This document shows, in pieces, positions 25,409 through 35,917 of a DNA stretch of 42,345 nt (position 1 is its first letter; each line of letters begins with the position of its first letter). The position numbers and the translations under genes were made by a program. The notes below the pieces were generated by a model. It saw only the letters and a program-made list of their open reading frames with translations. It had not been told where the DNA came from and ran no database searches. Origin of the DNA: an uncultured Bacteroidales bacterium (lineage in GTDB: Bacteria > Bacteroidota > Bacteroidia > Bacteroidales > ML635J-15); contig CALJNE010000042.1 in assembly GCA_937982115.1 (NCBI GenBank), positions 1 through 42,345 on the forward strand, given 5' to 3'.

Positions 25409-25416
25409 TAGTTTTG
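25409..25416 (+). promoter_or_regulatory. Probable -7 box of the LysM-SGNH-MBOAT operon
   Basis: TAGTTTTG matches TAnnTTTG and is followed by CA, 22 bp before the ATG. No clear -33 TTTG is seen at 19-20 bp, so the promoter may be weak or activated. Confidence 0.45.
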
Positions 25417-25438: not shown

Positions 25439-26884
25439 ATGCAGAGATTTTTATTGATATTACTAAAATTTAGCTTATTGACGATTATTACTTCTCAGAA
25501 TCAGGCACAAATTTCTATTGTGAATGATTTAAAGAAAAACTTAAAAATCTTCTGCAACGATTGTAATGAAGAATATTTTTCATTCTGTACCGAAAATTAT
25601 AATCATAGAAAAAATACTGCACTCGCCTCTTACGTATATATTGGAAATGAAAAGTTTGCCATAAGCTCCCGAGCAGAAAAAATAAAAAACGAACTCGATA
25701 ATCTTAGACTTTCAGAAAAATGCAAATTAAAATACTGTTACTTTTACTTTTCAAAGGTATCAGACTTTGATATGTCATTCCCAAAAGAAATTGCTCTTTT
25801 GCCAATTGCGATAAGTGCTCTGGATATAAACCACACCACAAATTACAAAGGTGTGGGAGTTTGGGGACTTCAATATGTACCGGCAGCAAAATTCGATTTT
25901 CCAGGCGATATTAACTTCGATAACAGACTCAATCCACAATTTTCGTCAAAAACGGCGGCAAAATATCTGTCTCACTTATACACAATATACGGGAGATGGG
26001 ACTATACTATTGCAGCATACCTTACATCACCAATCTATATTAACAAAATTATTGATTCCTCAAGGGATGAGAACTTTTTTTCTGTTTTGCCGGAAGATAT
26101 TATTCAGATTTTTGACAGATTAGTTGCCTTAATTTATTGGTTTGAAGAAAATCCGATAACAGAAAGTTTCAATTTATGTCCCGAGAAAAGCATTGATACT
26201 GTAAAAATAATTGATAAAATTCATTTTGAACAAATTGCTGCAGTTTTAAATATTGATATTGCAGAATTAAAAAATCTGAATAATGTTTTCATTTCGGAAA
26301 TAATTGATGGAAAAAGACGTGAAAAAATATTTTTACTTCCTGCCGGATATGGTCAAAAATTTTATGAACTTTATGATTCAATTTGTTCATACAATGTGGA
26401 AAAATATTTTCCAAAAGGAATGGAGAATATTACAGACTCTTCTAAAGATTTAAATCCCCCTCACGTACCGGGGCCGGACTACGAAAAAATCTATTATATA
26501 ATAGTTTCGGGAGATAATTTAGGAAGCATAGCTCAAAAATTTGGCGTAAAAATTTCAGAAATTCAGGAATGGAATAATATTGACGGTACAAAAATTTATG
26601 CAGGGCAGGAAATAGTTATTTGGAAGAAAAAAGGCGAAATCAATCAAGTTCGTAATAACATTACAAATAATGAAGTAAAATTTCAAACAAATAAGCAAAA
26701 TTTTGACCCATCAAAATACGAGCTTGTAGAAACTTACGAGGTAAAAAAAGGCGACTCTGCTTATAAAATAGCTCAAAAATACAGTTGGGCAACCGCCGAT
26801 GAAATTCTTGAATGGAATGGAATTTCGGATCCATCAAAATTGCAGGTTGGACAAAAACTAAAAATTTACAGGAAGAAAAAATGA
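25439..26884 (+). CDS. Secreted LysM protein with a degenerate lytic-transglycosylase domain
   Basis: A 481-residue envelope protein with a signal peptide (about residues 1-24). Residues 113-200 align with the MltD-type transglycosylase fold: PKEIALLPIAISALD, then GVGVWGLQYVPAAKFDF and DYTIAAYLTSP. Where active enzymes have the catalytic E-S pair (LPLVES), this protein has I125-S126, and the AAYNAG motif is AAYLTS. It is therefore probably catalytically dead. A linker resembling a degenerate LysM (260-300) and two good LysM modules (about 351-396 and 431-477) should bind peptidoglycan. The ATGA overlap with the next gene indicates tight coupling in a four-gene operon. Confidence 0.85.
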   Translation: MQRFLLILLKFSLLTIITSQNQAQISIVNDLKKNLKIFCNDCNEEYFSFCTENYNHRKNTALASYVYIGNEKFAISSRAEKIKNELDNLRLSEKCKLKYCYFYFSKVSDFDMSFPKEIALLPIAISALDINHTTNYKGVGVWGLQYVPAAKFDFPGDINFDNRLNPQFSSKTAAKYLSHLYTIYGRWDYTIAAYLTSPIYINKIIDSSRDENFFSVLPEDIIQIFDRLVALIYWFEENPITESFNLCPEKSIDTVKIIDKIHFEQIAAVLNIDIAELKNLNNVFISEIIDGKRREKIFLLPAGYGQKFYELYDSICSYNVEKYFPKGMENITDSSKDLNPPHVPGPDYEKIYYIIVSGDNLGSIAQKFGVKISEIQEWNNIDGTKIYAGQEIVIWKKKGEINQVRNNITNNEVKFQTNKQNFDPSKYELVETYEVKKGDSAYKIAQKYSWATADEILEWNGISDPSKLQVGQKLKIYRKKK

Positions 26885-28323
26885 AAGTAAGGGATGTTTT
26901 GCTTTTTGTGTGGGGCGTAATTGCTATTTTAGGAATTATTATGTTAGTATTCCCTAAAGATGGCATAAAAATCACAGATAATTTCATTCTGTATTTTCCT
27001 ACCTTCGAAGAAATGTTCTACACTTCAAAAAACAACAAAGATATCCCCAAAATCGAAAAGCAACAAGATATTGACGAACTTATTGACGAGAACAAAGAAT
27101 TCGATATAGAAGATATTAAATCAAAAATTACTCCTCTGGAATTTCCCGATAATAATCCACATGCCTTAGACCGATTTTTTGCAAAACTTGAAAACGAAAC
27201 ACAAAACGGAAAAGTTAGAATTATGCACTATGGCGATTCTCAAATCGAAGGAGATAGAATTACCGCTTATTTGCGAAACCGATTACAATCAAAATTCGGT
27301 GGATTTGGTTGCGGAATGTTGTTGCCAGTAACTATTTATGCACAGTTTAGTATCAAACAAATTGCCTCCGAAAACTGGATGCGTTTTAGCGGATTTGGAT
27401 ATAGCAACTACACAGCAAGTCATAACCGTTACGGACCTATGATTTCGTTTTGCAGATATTCTTACCCCGTTGATACTCCATTCCATAATCCGGCACAGCC
27501 TTACAAAGCATGGGTAGAGTTTTTCGAATCCGATCTGGCATACTCAAATACAAAAACATTCCGCGAAATTCAAATTTTATATGGAAATTCAAAAACAAAA
27601 ACATTTTTGACAATTAAATCAGGCGACAATATATTAAAAACAGACTCCCTTGAAAATGGTATAGGTCCATTTTTATATAAATATACACATGCCGATTATT
27701 TGAACAAAATCCGTTTTGAGTTTGAATCCTACGATAGTCCGGATATTTATGGAATTTCACTCGAAGACCAAACCGGAGTTGTAATAGACAACATAGCTCT
27801 CAGAGGCAGTAGCGGAACAGTTTTCACAACAACAAATACAGAATTATTGGCCAACTCATTTAATTTATTGGGTGTTGATTTATTCATTTTACAATTTGGG
27901 GGAAATTCAGTTCCCGGATTGCCGGATAAAAAATCAGCTGAAAATTTTGCCAATTATTTCTACTATCAAATAGCTTTTCTAAAAAATATTATGCCCGATG
28001 CTTGTTTTATTGTGATTGGTCCAAGCGATATGGCATATAAAGAAAAAGATGCCTATATATCCTATCCTAATCTCGAAAACATAATTAATGAACTCAAAAA
28101 AGCTACTCATCGAGCAGGCGGAGTTTATTGGGATCTTTACAAAGCTATGGGAGGAAAAAATTCTATGGTAGCATGGGTCAATGCAAATCCGCCTCTGGCT
28201 GCTCCCGATTTTATTCATTTCACTCCTCAAGGTGCTCAGATTGCAGCTAATATGCTTTACAGTGCTATATTTTTGGAATATACTAATTATAAAAATCAAC
28301 AAAATAAATCTGCCCAAAAGTGA
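26881..28323 (+). CDS. Membrane-anchored SGNH/GDSL hydrolase-family protein
   Basis: A 480-residue protein with an N-terminal membrane anchor (residues 4-25, VRDVLLFVWGVIAILGIIML) and a large periplasmic SGNH domain. Block I is HYGDSQIEGD (nucleophile S120), block III reads QFGGNSVPG, and block V is APDFIHFTPQG (D443, H446), so the catalytic triad is intact while GxND is GGNS. SGNH proteins next to MBOAT proteins often transfer or remove acetyl groups on glycans. The frame is open from 26812, but the ATG at 26881 overlaps the previous stop as ATGA and starts the hydrophobic anchor, so it is preferred. The next gene overlaps by four bases (GTGA). Confidence 0.85.
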   Translation: MKVRDVLLFVWGVIAILGIIMLVFPKDGIKITDNFILYFPTFEEMFYTSKNNKDIPKIEKQQDIDELIDENKEFDIEDIKSKITPLEFPDNNPHALDRFFAKLENETQNGKVRIMHYGDSQIEGDRITAYLRNRLQSKFGGFGCGMLLPVTIYAQFSIKQIASENWMRFSGFGYSNYTASHNRYGPMISFCRYSYPVDTPFHNPAQPYKAWVEFFESDLAYSNTKTFREIQILYGNSKTKTFLTIKSGDNILKTDSLENGIGPFLYKYTHADYLNKIRFEFESYDSPDIYGISLEDQTGVVIDNIALRGSSGTVFTTTNTELLANSFNLLGVDLFILQFGGNSVPGLPDKKSAENFANYFYYQIAFLKNIMPDACFIVIGPSDMAYKEKDAYISYPNLENIINELKKATHRAGGVYWDLYKAMGGKNSMVAWVNANPPLAAPDFIHFTPQGAQIAANMLYSAIFLEYTNYKNQQNKSAQK

Positions 28324-29588
28324 AAATATCACCAATACATATTGCTTTTACTTTTAATTTTATTTTCATTGCCACTCAATTGATGGCTCAACATAACGGA
28401 TCTCATTATTATATCCCCGAACAAATATATATCAATACTGACACAAATTATTTCCAGCATTTTGGAGCTAAAAACTCAATAAGTAAATTTTACGAAAAAA
28501 TAGAAAATTTATGCCTTTGCGGTGATGAAAAAGTAACAATCTTACATATTGGAGCATCACATGTTCAAGCTGGAGCATGGTCATGGGAGTTAAAGAAAAA
28601 ATTCGAAGAATTATGCCCTTTTTCCGAAGGAGCTCCGGGCTACGTTTTCCCATTTTCAATTGCAAATACTAATCATCCAATATTTTACCGCAGTGAATTT
28701 TCGGGGAAATGGGATTTTACAAGAATTACGGATAAAGAACTTAAACACACAACAGGATTAAGCGGAATAGCAGCTTTTACCCAGGATAGTATTGTAGAAC
28801 TGAAATTTTTCTTTAATAAAATTGCAGAAATTGAAAAACGTAAATTCAGCAGGATTAGAATTTTTTCAAATTTAAGCGATACTCTTTCTTATTCAATAAT
28901 AATTAATGGTAATACTGATTTGCAAAATATCACATTTGATACAATTACAGGCAGTATCATTGCTGATTTTAATACACTTCAAGATTCCATTTCTGTTTTG
29001 TTTTGTAAAAAAGACAGTACAAACACAGAGTTGATTTTTTACGGAATTTTAACAGAAAATCTCCAACCTTCTTTTAATTTCATTAGTATCGGCATAAATG
29101 GTGCCTCAACGTCATCATATCTAAAAGCTGAACTTTTTGAAAAACATCTTTCAGCCATAAATCCGGATCTGGTTATTTTTTCTATCGGTGTTAATGATGC
29201 CTCAGCTAAAGATTTTAATCGAAACAGATATTTTGCAAATTATCAAAACCTCATCAATAAAGTAAGAAAAATCAATCCCAACTGTGCTATAATTTTAACG
29301 ACAAATACCGATTTCTTCAATTCTCGTTCGGGCGTAAACAAAAACTACAATGAAGTTTATTCTGTGATGAAAGAACTCGCAGAAAAAAATGATTGTGTTG
29401 TGTGGAATCTTTTTAGCGTTATGGGGGGAGAAAAATCTATTTTATTATGGAAAAACGACAACCTTGCAACAAAAGATAAAATTCACTTTAGCTCCGAAGG
29501 ATACAGGATTATTGCAAGATTGATATTCAATGCTTTTTTGGAAGATTTTGTGGTTTATTTGAATAATAAGGGAAATGATAAATTTTAG
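28320..29588 (+). CDS. Secreted SGNH hydrolase-family protein
   Basis: A 422-residue protein with a signal peptide ending near residue 23 (TQLMAQ). SGNH block I is ILHIGASHVQAG (nucleophile S80, GAS instead of GDS), block III is the canonical SIGVND, and block V is KDKIHFSSEG (D386, H389). It starts at GTG, overlapping the previous stop by four bases (GTGA), and overlaps the MBOAT start by 14 bases. Together with the preceding SGNH protein it makes a non-identical pair, one anchored and one soluble, suggesting donor and acceptor or transferase and esterase roles. Substrate is unknown. Confidence 0.85.
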   Translation: MKISPIHIAFTFNFIFIATQLMAQHNGSHYYIPEQIYINTDTNYFQHFGAKNSISKFYEKIENLCLCGDEKVTILHIGASHVQAGAWSWELKKKFEELCPFSEGAPGYVFPFSIANTNHPIFYRSEFSGKWDFTRITDKELKHTTGLSGIAAFTQDSIVELKFFFNKIAEIEKRKFSRIRIFSNLSDTLSYSIIINGNTDLQNITFDTITGSIIADFNTLQDSISVLFCKKDSTNTELIFYGILTENLQPSFNFISIGINGASTSSYLKAELFEKHLSAINPDLVIFSIGVNDASAKDFNRNRYFANYQNLINKVRKINPNCAIILTTNTDFFNSRSGVNKNYNEVYSVMKELAEKNDCVVWNLFSVMGGEKSILLWKNDNLATKDKIHFSSEGYRIIARLIFNAFLEDFVVYLNNKGNDKF

Positions 29589-31242
29589 TGAAATAATCAA
29601 AAATATTTTTTCGTACAGTGAAACTTCTCCCCTGCTGTTCACTAAGTTTTTTTATTGGGCATTTTTTGCTGTAGTTCTTTTAGGATACACATTTTTAGCA
29701 AACAAAAGGGTATCCAGATCTCTGTATTTAATGCTCGTTAGTTTATTTTTCTATTACAAGTCCAGCGGATTCTTTTTCATTTTACTTATTTTCAGCACCG
29801 TAGTTGATTTTTATATCGGAAAATGGATTTATAACACCGAAAAGTCCGGAAAACGTAAGTTTCTGCTTTTTCTGAGCATGTTCATAAATCTTTTTCTATT
29901 GTCATATTTTAAATACACTTATTTTTTCACATCCGCAATCAACGACTTATTAGGGACTAACCTGGTAGCCTACAATTATCTGGCAGAGTTTTCAAATTTG
30001 TTTATGGGAACAAGTTTTGATACTTCTAAAATCTTTCTGCCCGTAGGTATATCTTTTTTCACATTTCAAACAATGTCCTACACGCTGGATATCTACAGCC
30101 GAAAACTTGAACCTGTAGAGAACATTTTGGATTTTGGTTTTTATGTATCATTTTTCCCGCAACTTGTTGCCGGACCAATAGTTAGGGCATCGGAATTTAT
30201 CCCACAGATATACAAAAAGTTTTCACTAACAAGATATGAGTTCGGCTGGGCATTGTTCATGATTTTAAAAGGATTGATTAAAAAAATCATGATTGGGGAT
30301 TACATAGCGGTAAACTTTGTTGATAGAGTATTTGCTAATCCGAGCATGTACACAGGTTTTGAGAGTATGATGGCAATGATTGGTTATTCGCTTCAGGTTT
30401 ACGTTGACTTTTCGGGTTATACAGATATGGCTATCGGTGTTGCTTTGCTAATGGGATTTAAACTGCCAAAAAACTTTGACTCCCCATATAAAGCACGAAA
30501 TTGTGCCGAATTCTGGAAACGTTGGCATATATCACTCTCTACCTGGTTGAAAGATTATCTTTATATACCTCTCGGAGGTAACCGAACTGCAACAAAAGGA
30601 ACCTGGATTAATTTCGGACTGATAATACTTATTTTTATTCTTCTTGCCGCAAATACATTAGCAACAATTTCACTTATTGCTTTCGGAATTATTATTTATT
30701 TAATTTATAAATTTAGCGAGAAAGCAAAAAAAGGAATTGTTACAAACATAAATACCATGATCACCATGTTACTTGGAGGATTATGGCATGGGTCAAGCTG
30801 GAATTTCTTAATTTGGGGAGGATTGAACGGAATTGGAATTTTAGTGTATAAGTACTGGAGAAAAATTAGCCCCTGGGAACAAAAAAACGGAAGATTGGCA
30901 ACCATTTGGAAGATAGCTCTTACTTTTAGCTTTATTACCTTTACAAGAGTATTTTTCAGAGCTCCGGATTATCCAATAGCGTCAACAATGCTTCATAGAA
31001 TATGGAATAATTTTCATCCGGAATTAATTCCAAAAATTATGGCCGGATACTACAAAGTATGGTTAATTATGCTTTTTGGTTTTATCACACATTGGTTAAG
31101 TTATAATTTCAAAGATAAATGGATGGAAAAATTCATTGCTTTACCACATTGGCAACAAGCATTTATTTCGGCAATTGTTGTTTTCATTGTTTATCAAAGC
31201 ATCTGTGCCGATATGCAACCATTTATTTATTTTCAATTTTAA
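29575..31242 (+). CDS. MBOAT family O-acyltransferase (AlgI/PatA/DltB type)
   Basis: A 555-residue polytopic membrane protein. It shows the MBOAT signatures: LPVGISFFTFQTMSYTLD (155-172), FFPQLVAGPIVR, YVDFSGYTDMAIG (276-288), FWKRWHISLSTWLKDY (313-328, H318) with YIPLGGNR, and GGLWHGSSWNF (401-411, catalytic H405). Relatives move acyl groups, usually acetyl, across the inner membrane to periplasmic glycans (alginate, peptidoglycan) or D-Ala to teichoic acids. Between GGNR and LWHG there are about 65 residues, more than the roughly 20-25 usual, with hydrophobic stretches that may add one or two membrane spans. It is the last gene of the operon. Confidence 0.92.
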   Translation: MINFSEIIKNIFSYSETSPLLFTKFFYWAFFAVVLLGYTFLANKRVSRSLYLMLVSLFFYYKSSGFFFILLIFSTVVDFYIGKWIYNTEKSGKRKFLLFLSMFINLFLLSYFKYTYFFTSAINDLLGTNLVAYNYLAEFSNLFMGTSFDTSKIFLPVGISFFTFQTMSYTLDIYSRKLEPVENILDFGFYVSFFPQLVAGPIVRASEFIPQIYKKFSLTRYEFGWALFMILKGLIKKIMIGDYIAVNFVDRVFANPSMYTGFESMMAMIGYSLQVYVDFSGYTDMAIGVALLMGFKLPKNFDSPYKARNCAEFWKRWHISLSTWLKDYLYIPLGGNRTATKGTWINFGLIILIFILLAANTLATISLIAFGIIIYLIYKFSEKAKKGIVTNINTMITMLLGGLWHGSSWNFLIWGGLNGIGILVYKYWRKISPWEQKNGRLATIWKIALTFSFITFTRVFFRAPDYPIASTMLHRIWNNFHPELIPKIMAGYYKVWLIMLFGFITHWLSYNFKDKWMEKFIALPHWQQAFISAIVVFIVYQSICADMQPFIYFQF

Positions 31243-33207: not shown

Positions 33208-33259
33208 TAAAATGTTAATAAAAAATAATATCTTTACAACCAAAATCAAAATCACTAAC

Positions 33260-35917
33260 ATGAAAAAGCTATTTTGTTTTTTTATATTGATGTTTGGAGC
33301 AACTCTGATTTTTGCACAAGAGATAAATCCTGATCGTACTTTTGTAAATCATTTTTATGATGCAGAAGCATACATGTATGAAAAAAACTTTGATGCTGCA
33401 TTGGAATTATTGCTGAAGTTAGAAGAAATGGATCCCAAAAATCCAAATATATGGTATAAAATAGGCTACTGCTACCTCAACACCAGATTATACAAAAAGA
33501 AAGCACAGGTTTATTTGGAAAAAGCCGTAGATTATGCAAATCCGAATTATAAATCAGACAACCATCGCGAAACTACAACGCCATTGGAATCATACTTATA
33601 CCTTGCTATTGCATATAGAGTAAATTACCAGTTCGATCTCAGTCTCGAAGCTCTCGACATGTTAAGACGTAAACTTAATCCCGCTAAAAAAGAAGATCAG
33701 GAGTTATTGAAGTTAATTGAAAGAGAAGAATTTATTACTAAAAATGCAATTTATTTTTACAATAACCCTGTTGAAGCTTATCTGAAAAATTTAGGTCCTG
33801 AAATAAATTCACCTTATGCCGATCACTCGCCGGTAATAGATTTCAACGAAAAAGTTTTGATTTATACATCTAAAAGACCTCGTGATGGTCAAGCTCCTCA
33901 AAATCAGGACGAAGATATTTTTATAAGCAAAAGCAATAATTACAAATGGCAAAAACCTCAAAGACTTGATGCTCCGGTAAATACAAAAGAACATAATGAG
34001 GCCTCTATCGGTCTTTCGCTTGATGGAAAACAATTGTTCTTCTATCGCTCGGCTTATAATTTTGCAGGAAATGTATATGTTACAGAATCAGAAGACGGAT
34101 ATAATTGGAGCGAACCAAAATTATTACGAGAAGACGTAAATACAAAATATCGCGAAACTCACGCAACAATAACTCCCGATGGCAATGCTATATTCTTCAC
34201 CAGCGACCGTAAAGGAGGTTTTGGCGGTACCGATATATATGTAATGCGAAAACTTCCAAACGGAAAATGGAGCCGCCCTCAATTATTACCAGAGCAAGTT
34301 AATACCCCATACGACGAAGAATCTCCATTTGTTCATCCCGACGGAATCACCTTGTTTTTCTCCTCTAAAGGACATAACACAATGGGAGGCTATGATGTAT
34401 TCTACACTAAAATGAACAGAGACGGAAGTTTTACCGAACCTGTTAACCTTGGATACCCTATCAATACTCCCGATGATGACGTTTCTTATGTAATGAACAT
34501 GGATGGACGAAGAGGTTATATTGCAACTGTTAAAGATGACAGTTTCGGAGACCTCGACATTTACGAAATTATTCAATCCGGAATTTATGACAATAACTTA
34601 ATCGTTTACGACGGCATTGTTTCCGATATCAATAATAATATCCCTTCAGACCTTATTGTAGCTGTTAGAGATGTTAAAACCGAAGAATATGTTGGAATTT
34701 ACAGACCAAATAAAAGAGACGGAAAATATTTGATTGTATTACTCCCCGATAACTCTTATGAAATCTCTTATGAAGCTTCCGGATTTTTAATCCATTCTAT
34801 AGAATATACTCCTACTCGCGATGATGTAAAAAAATTCTCAACTTCATTTTTACCAATAGAACTTGACCCCGTTCTGCTACAGGCTTATTTGATGCACGAC
34901 TTTGTTTATTTTAACGAAGGCGACATGGAACTCGATAGCGAAGCTATCTCAATTTTAAATAAAGTGATTCAAAAGTCTAATGAATGGAAAGGAGAATCTC
35001 CTGCCGGACTTATCATAAATATTAACCTCCCCATAGTTGGAGCTGATCCTATAAAAGATAACAAAAGATCGAGTGCTATTATTTCGTATCTGACTTCTAA
35101 AGGAATTGACAAATCCAAAATTTATCTTAATGGTTCTTATCCGCAAGGATATAATGATGTTTATGGTCTAGACATTCGTGAACGTAAACAACTTATTGCT
35201 TCTAACCTCCCTGTAGAAGAAGAAAGTGTTACTAAAGAAAAGAAAACTATTACAATTGAAAACATTTTATTCGACTTTGACAAATACAACATTAAGACGC
35301 AATACATTCCAAATCTCGAAATTCTTGCTAATTTCTTGATTGATAATCCAAATGCTCAGATCGAAATCGAAGGACATACCGATATTCTTGGTTCGAATGA
35401 ATACAACTATTTACTCTCTTATCGAAGAGCAAAAGCTGTTAAAGACTTCCTGGTCAACAAAGGTGCTAAACCAGAAAATATTATTACAACAAAATACGGA
35501 AAAGACAGACCTATTGCTGCCAACACAACACTTGACGGTAGAGACAATCCTGCCGGTAGAAGACTTAACAGACGTGCAGAATTTAAAGTTTTAAATCAAG
35601 GATACGAAAGTCTGTTAGTGGTTAAACCTTTAACTCCTGATCAAAGTCTGGCATTGGCTGATAATCTTAGCGGTACTAATGTTGTAGTTGATCCAAGTAA
35701 AAAATACACTATTCAGATTTTCGCTCTTAAAAATCCAAAACCAATCGAATATTTTGCTGACCTCGTAGGTGTTAAAATGCACGTAAGCGAAGACGGTTGG
35801 TATAGATATTATGTCGGAGAATTTAATTCCTACAAAGAGGCAAAAGACGCTCTGGAAAATCTGAAAAAACAAGGATATAACCCGTTTATCAGAAAATTAA
35901 ACTTCTTTGAAAAATAA
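33260..35917 (+). CDS. PorE-like periplasmic protein: TPR, PD40 propeller, two OmpA-like domains, SPOR
   Basis: An 885-residue secreted protein with a signal peptide (cleavage near residue 20, LIFAQ). Domains in order: TPR-like helices (about 25-165); a PD40/WD40-like propeller (about 185-440) with repeats such as GGFGGTDIYVM; a carboxypeptidase-regulatory-like beta domain (447-530); a degenerate OmpA-like domain (546-625); a canonical OmpA peptidoglycan-binding domain (664-780, with IEIEGHTDILGSNEYN and RLNRRAEF); and a C-terminal SPOR domain (813-881). The first four types match PorE, which links the type IX machinery to peptidoglycan, but no lipobox Cys is present and SPOR is extra. The ATG at 33260 starts the signal peptide; the frame is open from 33212. 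Confidence 0.85.
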   Translation: MKKLFCFFILMFGATLIFAQEINPDRTFVNHFYDAEAYMYEKNFDAALELLLKLEEMDPKNPNIWYKIGYCYLNTRLYKKKAQVYLEKAVDYANPNYKSDNHRETTTPLESYLYLAIAYRVNYQFDLSLEALDMLRRKLNPAKKEDQELLKLIEREEFITKNAIYFYNNPVEAYLKNLGPEINSPYADHSPVIDFNEKVLIYTSKRPRDGQAPQNQDEDIFISKSNNYKWQKPQRLDAPVNTKEHNEASIGLSLDGKQLFFYRSAYNFAGNVYVTESEDGYNWSEPKLLREDVNTKYRETHATITPDGNAIFFTSDRKGGFGGTDIYVMRKLPNGKWSRPQLLPEQVNTPYDEESPFVHPDGITLFFSSKGHNTMGGYDVFYTKMNRDGSFTEPVNLGYPINTPDDDVSYVMNMDGRRGYIATVKDDSFGDLDIYEIIQSGIYDNNLIVYDGIVSDINNNIPSDLIVAVRDVKTEEYVGIYRPNKRDGKYLIVLLPDNSYEISYEASGFLIHSIEYTPTRDDVKKFSTSFLPIELDPVLLQAYLMHDFVYFNEGDMELDSEAISILNKVIQKSNEWKGESPAGLIININLPIVGADPIKDNKRSSAIISYLTSKGIDKSKIYLNGSYPQGYNDVYGLDIRERKQLIASNLPVEEESVTKEKKTITIENILFDFDKYNIKTQYIPNLEILANFLIDNPNAQIEIEGHTDILGSNEYNYLLSYRRAKAVKDFLVNKGAKPENIITTKYGKDRPIAANTTLDGRDNPAGRRLNRRAEFKVLNQGYESLLVVKPLTPDQSLALADNLSGTNVVVDPSKKYTIQIFALKNPKPIEYFADLVGVKMHVSEDGWYRYYVGEFNSYKEAKDALENLKKQGYNPFIRKLNFFEK

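Follow-up and report, generated by a model that had tools for sequence, protein, structure and literature searches.

A probable peptidoglycan O-acetylation operon of Bacteroidota with a predicted non-catalytic, peptidoglycan-docking subunit

Four overlapping genes on the forward strand of a 42,345-nucleotide stretch from an uncultured Bacteroidales bacterium (assembly GCA_937982115.1, contig CALJNE010000042.1, lineage ML635J-15; the whole stretch is called the window below) probably form, at 25439-31242, an operon of the Bacteroidota type for the O-acetylation and de-O-acetylation of peptidoglycan. Genes 2 to 4 are ape1b-ape1c-pat, the O-acetylpeptidoglycan (OAP) cluster of Bacteroidetes, and the acylation core had been described before. 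Gene 1 encodes a predicted non-catalytic relative of the lytic transglycosylase MltD, with two LysM modules that could dock the system on peptidoglycan; the functions proposed here are read from sequences and structural models. O-acetylation of N-acetylmuramic acid (MurNAc) blocks the action of lysozyme as well as that of the lytic transglycosylases of the cell itself, and for that reason a dead transglycosylase inside an acetylation operon would be a pointed form of regulation. Bacteroidota are among the major bacteria of the gut, the mouth and the sea.

The product of gene 1 matches Pseudomonas aeruginosa MltD (8rhe) both by sequence and by its AlphaFold2 (AF2) model (pLDDT 83; Z 16.7, 243 residues aligned, rmsd 4.8), and Pfam detects in it two LysM modules (2.6e-29) and an SLT domain (5.3e-6). 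The fold and the LysM modules are those of MltD; the catalytic glutamate is not there. At the MltD position occupied by this residue, which we take to be the catalytic one of the family, the alignments place Ile125: the site reads LPIAISALD in the window against LPVIESAYN in MltD and LPIIESALN in relatives, and the AYN motif is gone too. The idea that gene 1 is an active MltD was set aside on the loss of Glu and AYN. The first-pass annotation, made from the sequence letters, had called the LysM protein non-catalytic, and its assignment as a non-catalytic MltD-type protein is supported by both losses. That annotation also knew of no described system of this composition. This was wrong for three of the four genes, since Weadge, Pfeffer and Clarke (2005) described ape1b-ape1c-pat. 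Literature searches for OAP clusters that include a catalytically inactive lytic transglycosylase or a protein with LysM turned up no paper. The part of gene 1 in such a cluster appears new, as far as these searches go.

The accessible text of Weadge et al. (PMC1199599) places ape1b, ape1c and pat in Bacteroides thetaiotaomicron, B. fragilis and Porphyromonas gingivalis, and gives base-labile peptidoglycan acetate, relative to muramic acid, as 69.4% in B. fragilis and 27.0% in B. thetaiotaomicron. The window holds ape1b, ape1c and then pat, adjacent and in the same order, genes 2 and 3 being placed in subfamilies 1b and 1c by position and anchoring, not by the motifs of that paper; peptidoglycan is the presumed substrate. 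Gene 4 carries an MBOAT domain (Pfam, 7.2e-25; DltB structures matched at 1.4e-18) with the catalytic His in WHG, and ends in FIYFQF. This hexapeptide corresponds, with its acceptor Tyr, to the C-terminal FXYXXF of PatA, described as the acyl-Tyr shuttle motif in the accessible part of PMC12148441. Among the MBOATs of sampled loci, FXYXXF is found in 151/162 and WHG in 161/162. The OAP loci were sampled by gene 2, which does not hold for the whole-genome counts below; the genomes are related, many are metagenome bins, and the counts overstate independence because the sampled loci are related. Two loci carry a tandem pair of MBOAT genes behind ape1b (L090:9239-12201 and L099:9252-12214). A Bacteroidota-type ape1b-ape1c-pat trio also occurs in record CP034120.1 (L317), named Glaciecola amylolytica and so presumably a gammaproteobacterium; it reflects either transfer or a mislabelled record.

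The two SGNH proteins are both of the Ape1 type. The Pfam GDSL match is weak and below cut-off in gene 2 and reaches 1.8e-18 in gene 3. In single-sequence and profile searches, both have Neisseria meningitidis Ape1 (4k3u) as their best match (profile searches: 1.2e-34 for gene 2, 1.5e-39 for gene 3), followed by Campylobacter jejuni Ape1 (8gkd, 8gld). The AF2 model of gene 2 (pLDDT 86) superposes on 4k3u with Z 37.2 over 342 of 350 residues at 2.6 A, and on PatB (8tlb) with Z 13.2 over 188 residues, a match of the core fold only; no PatB structure reached an E of 1 in profile searches with genes 2 and 3. Gene 2 shows the SGNH triad (Ser120 in GDSQ, invariant in 21/21 aligned sequences, with D443 and H446), the inserted beta domain and the Ape1 fold. 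Gene 3 is related to Ape1 by sequence and has the triad S80, D386 and H389, invariant in 15 aligned sequences; its block I reads GASH, with GAS rather than GDS. Across 154 Ape1c copies this block is GGSH in 90, GDSH in 52, GASH in 8, GQSH in 2 and absent in 2, so that the usual Asp is lost in most. Esterase activity on O-acetylpeptidoglycan is conceivable for either protein and is proposed here for gene 3. Together with the PatA-type FXYXXF of the MBOAT, these two proteins lend support to the earlier suggestion of an acyl export, transfer and removal system.

Which of the two would transfer the acetyl group is a question raised by the missing PatB. That neither SGNH protein resembles PatB had escaped the first-pass annotation. 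According to the accessible part of PMC9487903, PatB is a DUF459 protein that originally bore the name Ape2. With the DUF459 profile (PF04311), gene 2 gave no hit and gene 3 scored 22.1 bits, under the cut-off of 27.2; above cut-off the family was found in 0/26 genomes of the host genus, weak matches occurring in 17/26, many of them on gene 3 itself. If the PatA/PatB mechanism applies, the absence of a PatB over cut-off in the genus means that an Ape1-type protein must be the transferase. We favour gene 2 as the probable acetyltransferase because genomes with gene 2 only outnumber those with gene 3 only, because it pairs with MBOAT, and because it has a membrane segment. Among 198 genomes of the host order, gene 2 is present in 101 and gene 3 in 90 (92 before G271 and G358 were dropped as cross-matches to gene 2); 88 have both, 13 have gene 2 alone and 2 have gene 3 alone (G287 and G396), and in one of the 13, G426, the contig breaks off within the first part of a gene 3. 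At least 9 of these 13 genomes have gene 2 immediately next to MBOAT (L142, L168, L170, L173, L179, L187, L194, L199 and L242, the last with a shortened gene 2 frame). An N-terminal hydrophobic segment occurs in 95% of 206 gene 2 copies, and an N-terminal membrane segment has been proposed for PatB in the accessible part of PMC12148441.

Some observations weigh against this assignment. Block II Gly309 of gene 2, mapped by hand from the alignment to the NGA of Ape1, is kept and is invariant in 21 sequences; this is typical of hydrolases, whereas PatB, by the block II definition in the accessible part of PMC12148441, has Ser or Asn in place of Gly. In G396 (82% complete; locus L333), gene 3 adjoins MBOAT and there is no gene 2. 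A reversal of roles, with gene 2 as esterase and gene 3 as transferase, or with both proteins doing both, has in its favour the retained Gly, the loss of the block I Asp in most gene 3 copies, the DUF459 match of gene 3, weak and below cut-off, and the naming of both Ape1b and Ape1c as esterases in the accessible text of PMC1199599. We nevertheless consider it rather unlikely: the surplus of gene-2-only genomes (13 versus 2) comes from genome counts that were not drawn by gene 2, the membrane segment proposed for PatB is on gene 2, and fused LysM modules occur on gene 3 only (12/160, versus 0/206 for gene 2; MBOAT has 0/169). In addition, the genome G287 lacks gene 2 and has a lone Ape1c, which also matches the transglycosylase profile (probably through LysM); the stretch examined there contains no MBOAT. 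We infer that genes 2 and 3 divide the work between them; literature searches, with most subscription journals outside their reach, found no paper settling which Bacteroidota SGNH protein is the acetyltransferase.

The loss of the glutamate extends far beyond the window. In a first set of 19 copies longer than 300 amino acids (from the genus, G186 and G045), Glu is replaced in all by I, F, L or V, 10 of the 19 being dispersed copies from a single group within the genus (L071-L080) that are not adjacent to ape1b. Glu scoring passed over shorter copies, among which are a fragment in L167 and, in L099, a copy with Glu that lies some 5.5 kb past the OAP genes. A transglycosylase of the MltD family lies upstream of ape1b in 42 of 80 OAP loci from the order; 44 cluster-linked copies of the order set are readable at the site, 34 with Glu and 10 without, and copies away from the OAP cluster keep it in 45/46, L208 in G429 being the exception. 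Among 79 OAP loci from named organisms, a Glu-less copy precedes ape1b in 26 and a Glu-bearing one in 19; 3 are unreadable at the site, 1 has its copy about 5 kb away, 2 have less than 600 bases upstream and 28 have none. Glu-less copies span Bacteroidales, Marinilabiliales, Flavobacteriales and Cytophagales, and include Maribellus, Draconibacterium and Cyclobacteriaceae. The AYN motif is kept in 29/29 chosen Glu-bearing copies and lost in 28/29 Glu-less ones. The four-gene order recurs in other families and orders, more than chance would give, and the possibility that it occurs only here is refuted. One locus scored as unreadable, L254, has a split gene whose larger piece reads Phe; on this contig (Marinilabiliales BM703; L070 is the same contig) gene 1 lies in two frames, through a frameshift, a stop or a sequencing error.

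The two kinds of neighbour also differ in how they sit before ape1b. The spacing of Glu-less copies has a median of -1 (43 loci, 30 overlapping) and that of Glu-bearing copies a median of 24 (47 loci, 3 overlapping), a difference in overlap for which Fisher's test gives 2e-10, uncorrected for kinship and with related loci counted separately; the larger overlaps are an artefact of taking the first possible start codon. Duplicates were removed from the spacing and LysM counts (named loci L253, L254, L271, L286 and L326 repeat L066, L070, L124, L127 and L157); before removal, overlap stood at 30/44 versus 3/50 and LysM at 12/72 versus 0/85, the latter two with a looser definition of 'adjacent'. 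ParB or DUF5683-like genes precede the Glu-bearing copy in 23/31 unnamed loci, 6 of the other 8 having less than 900 bases upstream, and precede Glu-less or unreadable copies in 0/30 (the ten dispersed genus copies included); in the named set they occur before 15/19 Glu-bearing, 0/26 Glu-less and 0/4 other copies. The Glu-bearing neighbours are mostly part of a separate ParA-ParB-DUF5683-MltD locus (examples are L121-L125, L128-L130, L135, L136, L139, L157, L160, L169, L170 and L173, and, among named loci, L258, L271 and L328). This locus is recurrent in the order, often with the OAP cluster right behind it, a chromosome-partition locus linked to wall acetylation.

A quick tree of 109 rows needs one change to the Glu-less state, and a careful tree of 58 rows one or two, with one in 20% of bootstraps, although long branches leave the number of losses unsure; the loss in L144, where AYN is still present, seems to be separate and recent. 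Since the trees allow one or two origins, the Glu-less proteins are best seen as an old, distinct family derived from MltD. Many independent losses, considered as an alternative, are not claimed.

Is this family tied to acetylation? In the host genus, gene 1 is found, linked or not, in 22/25 genomes with an orthologous MBOAT, and G247, the sole genus genome without such an MBOAT, also has no gene 1. Of these 22 genomes, 12 have gene 1 apart from gene 2 (among them G253, 73% complete, in which no gene 2 is seen); in a number of the 12 the MBOAT too is far from genes 2-3, for example in G251, G259 and G261, while it lies within about 450 bases after gene 3 in G258 and about 5 kb off in G263. The gene set tends to be kept in the genus even when scattered. 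A second link is given by LysM modules inside Ape1c, found in 12/70 loci without an adjacent transglycosylase and in 0/80 with one (6e-5, uncorrected). They have an internal layout in L113 (8294-9712), L114, L181, L182 and L191 and a C-terminal one in L110, L180, L184-L186, L190 and L197, those in L110, L113 and L114 having been checked by Pfam. Because such fusions occur only in loci without an adjacent transglycosylase, LysM apparently comes either in cis, on Ape1c, or in trans, from gene 1. A precedent for the kind of partnership involved comes from Neisseria, whose catalytically active transglycosylase LtgA forms a complex with Ape1 and makes it more active although no substrate is shared, the stimulation being mutual (PMC7083599, accessible part). 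By analogy, gene 1 may be an LtgA-like partner from which the cutting activity has been removed; a scaffold or docking role, probably that of a wall-binding helper, is what these data point to, the LysM-Ape1c fusions giving indirect support.

Several facts pull the other way. Three genomes of the genus (G256, G281 and G282) have the MBOAT and no gene 1; G429 carries a Glu-less MltD-type orphan (L208; L241:4958-6490) with no detectable Ape1b in the genome; and 58 of the 70 loci without an adjacent transglycosylase also have no LysM on Ape1c, which means that gene 1 is not needed everywhere and that docking is either dispensable or supplied otherwise. Gene 1 might be a passenger, left over from a duplication of the MltD next to the OAP genes and decayed since, with no role in O-acetylation. 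The Glu-bearing MltD of the ParB-DUF5683-MltD locus does adjoin ape1b in many genomes, gene 1 lies away from ape1b in the 12 genus genomes just mentioned, and L149, L152 and L158 contain tandem MltD pairs in which the outer copy has Glu and the inner one, beside ape1b, has lost it (Gly, Gly and Leu). Simple decay is, however, difficult to reconcile with the 7 Glu-less relatives that were scanned, drawn from several orders, in all of which the reading frame stays long and open and the SLT match and the two LysM modules persist despite the loss of Glu, with the overlap with ape1b that marks Glu-less copies, and with the existence of the LysM-Ape1c fusions; we regard it as unlikely.

It is more improbable still that the operon acylates another envelope glycan such as a surface polysaccharide, in the manner of AlgI/J/X. 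Several polymers are acetylated by MBOAT-SGNH pairs (PMC12148441, accessible part) and the same genome has further MBOAT paralogues; LysM, the transglycosylase fold and the Ape1 fold, on the other hand, all indicate peptidoglycan, and no glycan-synthesis gene was found by Pfam among the six scanned genes flanking the operon in the window (0/6). Exopolysaccharide acetylation of the AlgI/J/X kind was set aside, the SGNH proteins having no AlgX/AlgJ match in Pfam and PDB searches, which would not exclude one. Finally, that gene 1 still cleaves glycan through another residue is very hard to credit, for although the fold is retained, Glu and AYN are both lost, and the variety of residues found in place of Glu (I, V, F, L, Y, C, Q, A, K, S, R, G) suggests that the site is unconstrained.

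The reading that we prefer, an OAP operon with a docking subunit, can be put as a sequence of steps. The MBOAT (PatA) would move an acetyl group from acetyl-CoA to the Tyr of its own C-terminal FIYFQF; the membrane-tethered gene 2 product would take it on its Ser and pass it to C6 of MurNAc, filling the role of PatB without belonging to its family; and the periplasmic, Ape1c-type gene 3 product would remove it. Gene 1 would hold on to glycan strands with its LysM modules and its degenerate cleft, placing or stimulating the Ape1-type enzymes there without cutting. More tentatively, the operon might represent a third O-acetylation architecture of Bacteroidota, one without PatB, with an anchored acetyltransferase of Ape1 fold, and with a dead transglycosylase as the strand reader that places acetylation or de-acetylation and can be replaced by a LysM fused to the esterase.

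The features of the operon are collected in the table. The domain make-up given by the first-pass annotation (a LysM protein, two SGNH proteins and an MBOAT) is borne out by Pfam, and its coordinates and overlaps were confirmed, apart from the start of gene 2, which is the ATG at 26881, the start at 26812 taken by the open reading frame finder being too early. It had further held that the four genes must be translated together: the overlaps do suggest translational coupling, but the compulsion goes too far, gene 1 being unlinked to gene 2 in over half of the genus genomes that have it. A simple hydropathy scan showed one N-terminal hydrophobic segment in gene 2 and none above threshold in genes 1 and 3, whose N-termini are signal-like by eye. 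Upstream of gene 1, no Bacteroidota-type promoter with both boxes was found; the sole trace is a -7-like TAGTTTTG at 25409.

Table. Features of the operon in the window (all on the + strand)
Feature	Position	Strand	Description	Basis
Gene 1	25439..26884	+	481 amino acids; MltD-derived pseudo-lytic transglycosylase, signal-like N-terminus, degenerate SLT, two C-terminal LysM	
Codon of Ile125	25811..25813	+	Position of the MltD catalytic Glu	Alignments
LysM 1 of gene 1	26495..26623	+	Residues 353-395	Pfam
LysM 2 of gene 1	26732..26866	+	About residues 432-476	
ATGA overlap	26881..26884	+	Gene 1 stop/gene 2 start	Sequence
Gene 2	26881..28323	+	480 amino acids; Ape1b-type SGNH protein, N-terminal membrane helix, inserted beta domain as in Ape1; putative acetyltransferase in the role of PatB	
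Block I Ser120 of gene 2	27238..27240	+	GDSQ; SGNH triad with D443, H446	
GTGA overlap	28320..28323	+	Gene 2 stop/gene 3 start	Sequence
Gene 3	28320..29588	+	422 amino acids, GTG start; Ape1c-type SGNH protein; proposed O-acetylpeptidoglycan esterase	
Block I of gene 3	28551..28562	+	GASH	
14 bp overlap	29575..29588	+	Gene 3 end/gene 4 start	Sequence
Gene 4	29575..31242	+	555 amino acids; MBOAT acyltransferase of PatA type	
FIYFQF of gene 4	31222..31239	+	C-terminal hexapeptide; FXYXXF acyl-Tyr shuttle motif of PatA	Sequence

Neighbour annotation covers the six flanking genes of the window, and relatives only unsystematically. Directly 3' of dxs, the window encodes at 33212-35914 a TPR-PD40-OmpA-SPOR protein, a relative of CHU_0125 and PorE whose matches to both families fall short of the cut-offs. 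Downstream dxs and OmpA/PD40/SPOR genes are also present in L065, the nearest relative, with hits in L088 and L163 as well; these two genes were not counted as part of the four-gene system.

Compared with known systems, the operon shares with the OAP cluster of Bacteroides and Porphyromonas its three gene families and their order, with the MBOAT at the end; the accessible text of PMC1199599 mentions no transglycosylase gene there, and has a cation-efflux gene upstream in Bacteroides. With MltD, as known from P. aeruginosa (8rhe/8rhf) and from the ParA-ParB-DUF5683-MltD locus of Bacteroidota, gene 1 has the fold and LysM in common, and differs in lacking the catalytic Glu and AYN and in overlapping ape1b. 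The likeness to the LtgA-Ape1 pair of N. meningitidis lies in the pairing of Ape1 with a lytic transglycosylase, which there binds and stimulates it, but LtgA is an active, Slt70-like enzyme, and the pat operon deleted in that work consists of patA, patB and ape1 (PMC7083599, accessible part). With the patA-patB-ape1 systems of Neisseria and Campylobacter, finally, the window has in common an MBOAT with FXYXXF and the Ape1 fold; it differs from them in having no PatB (DUF459) over cut-off, two Ape1-type proteins, and the MBOAT last instead of first.

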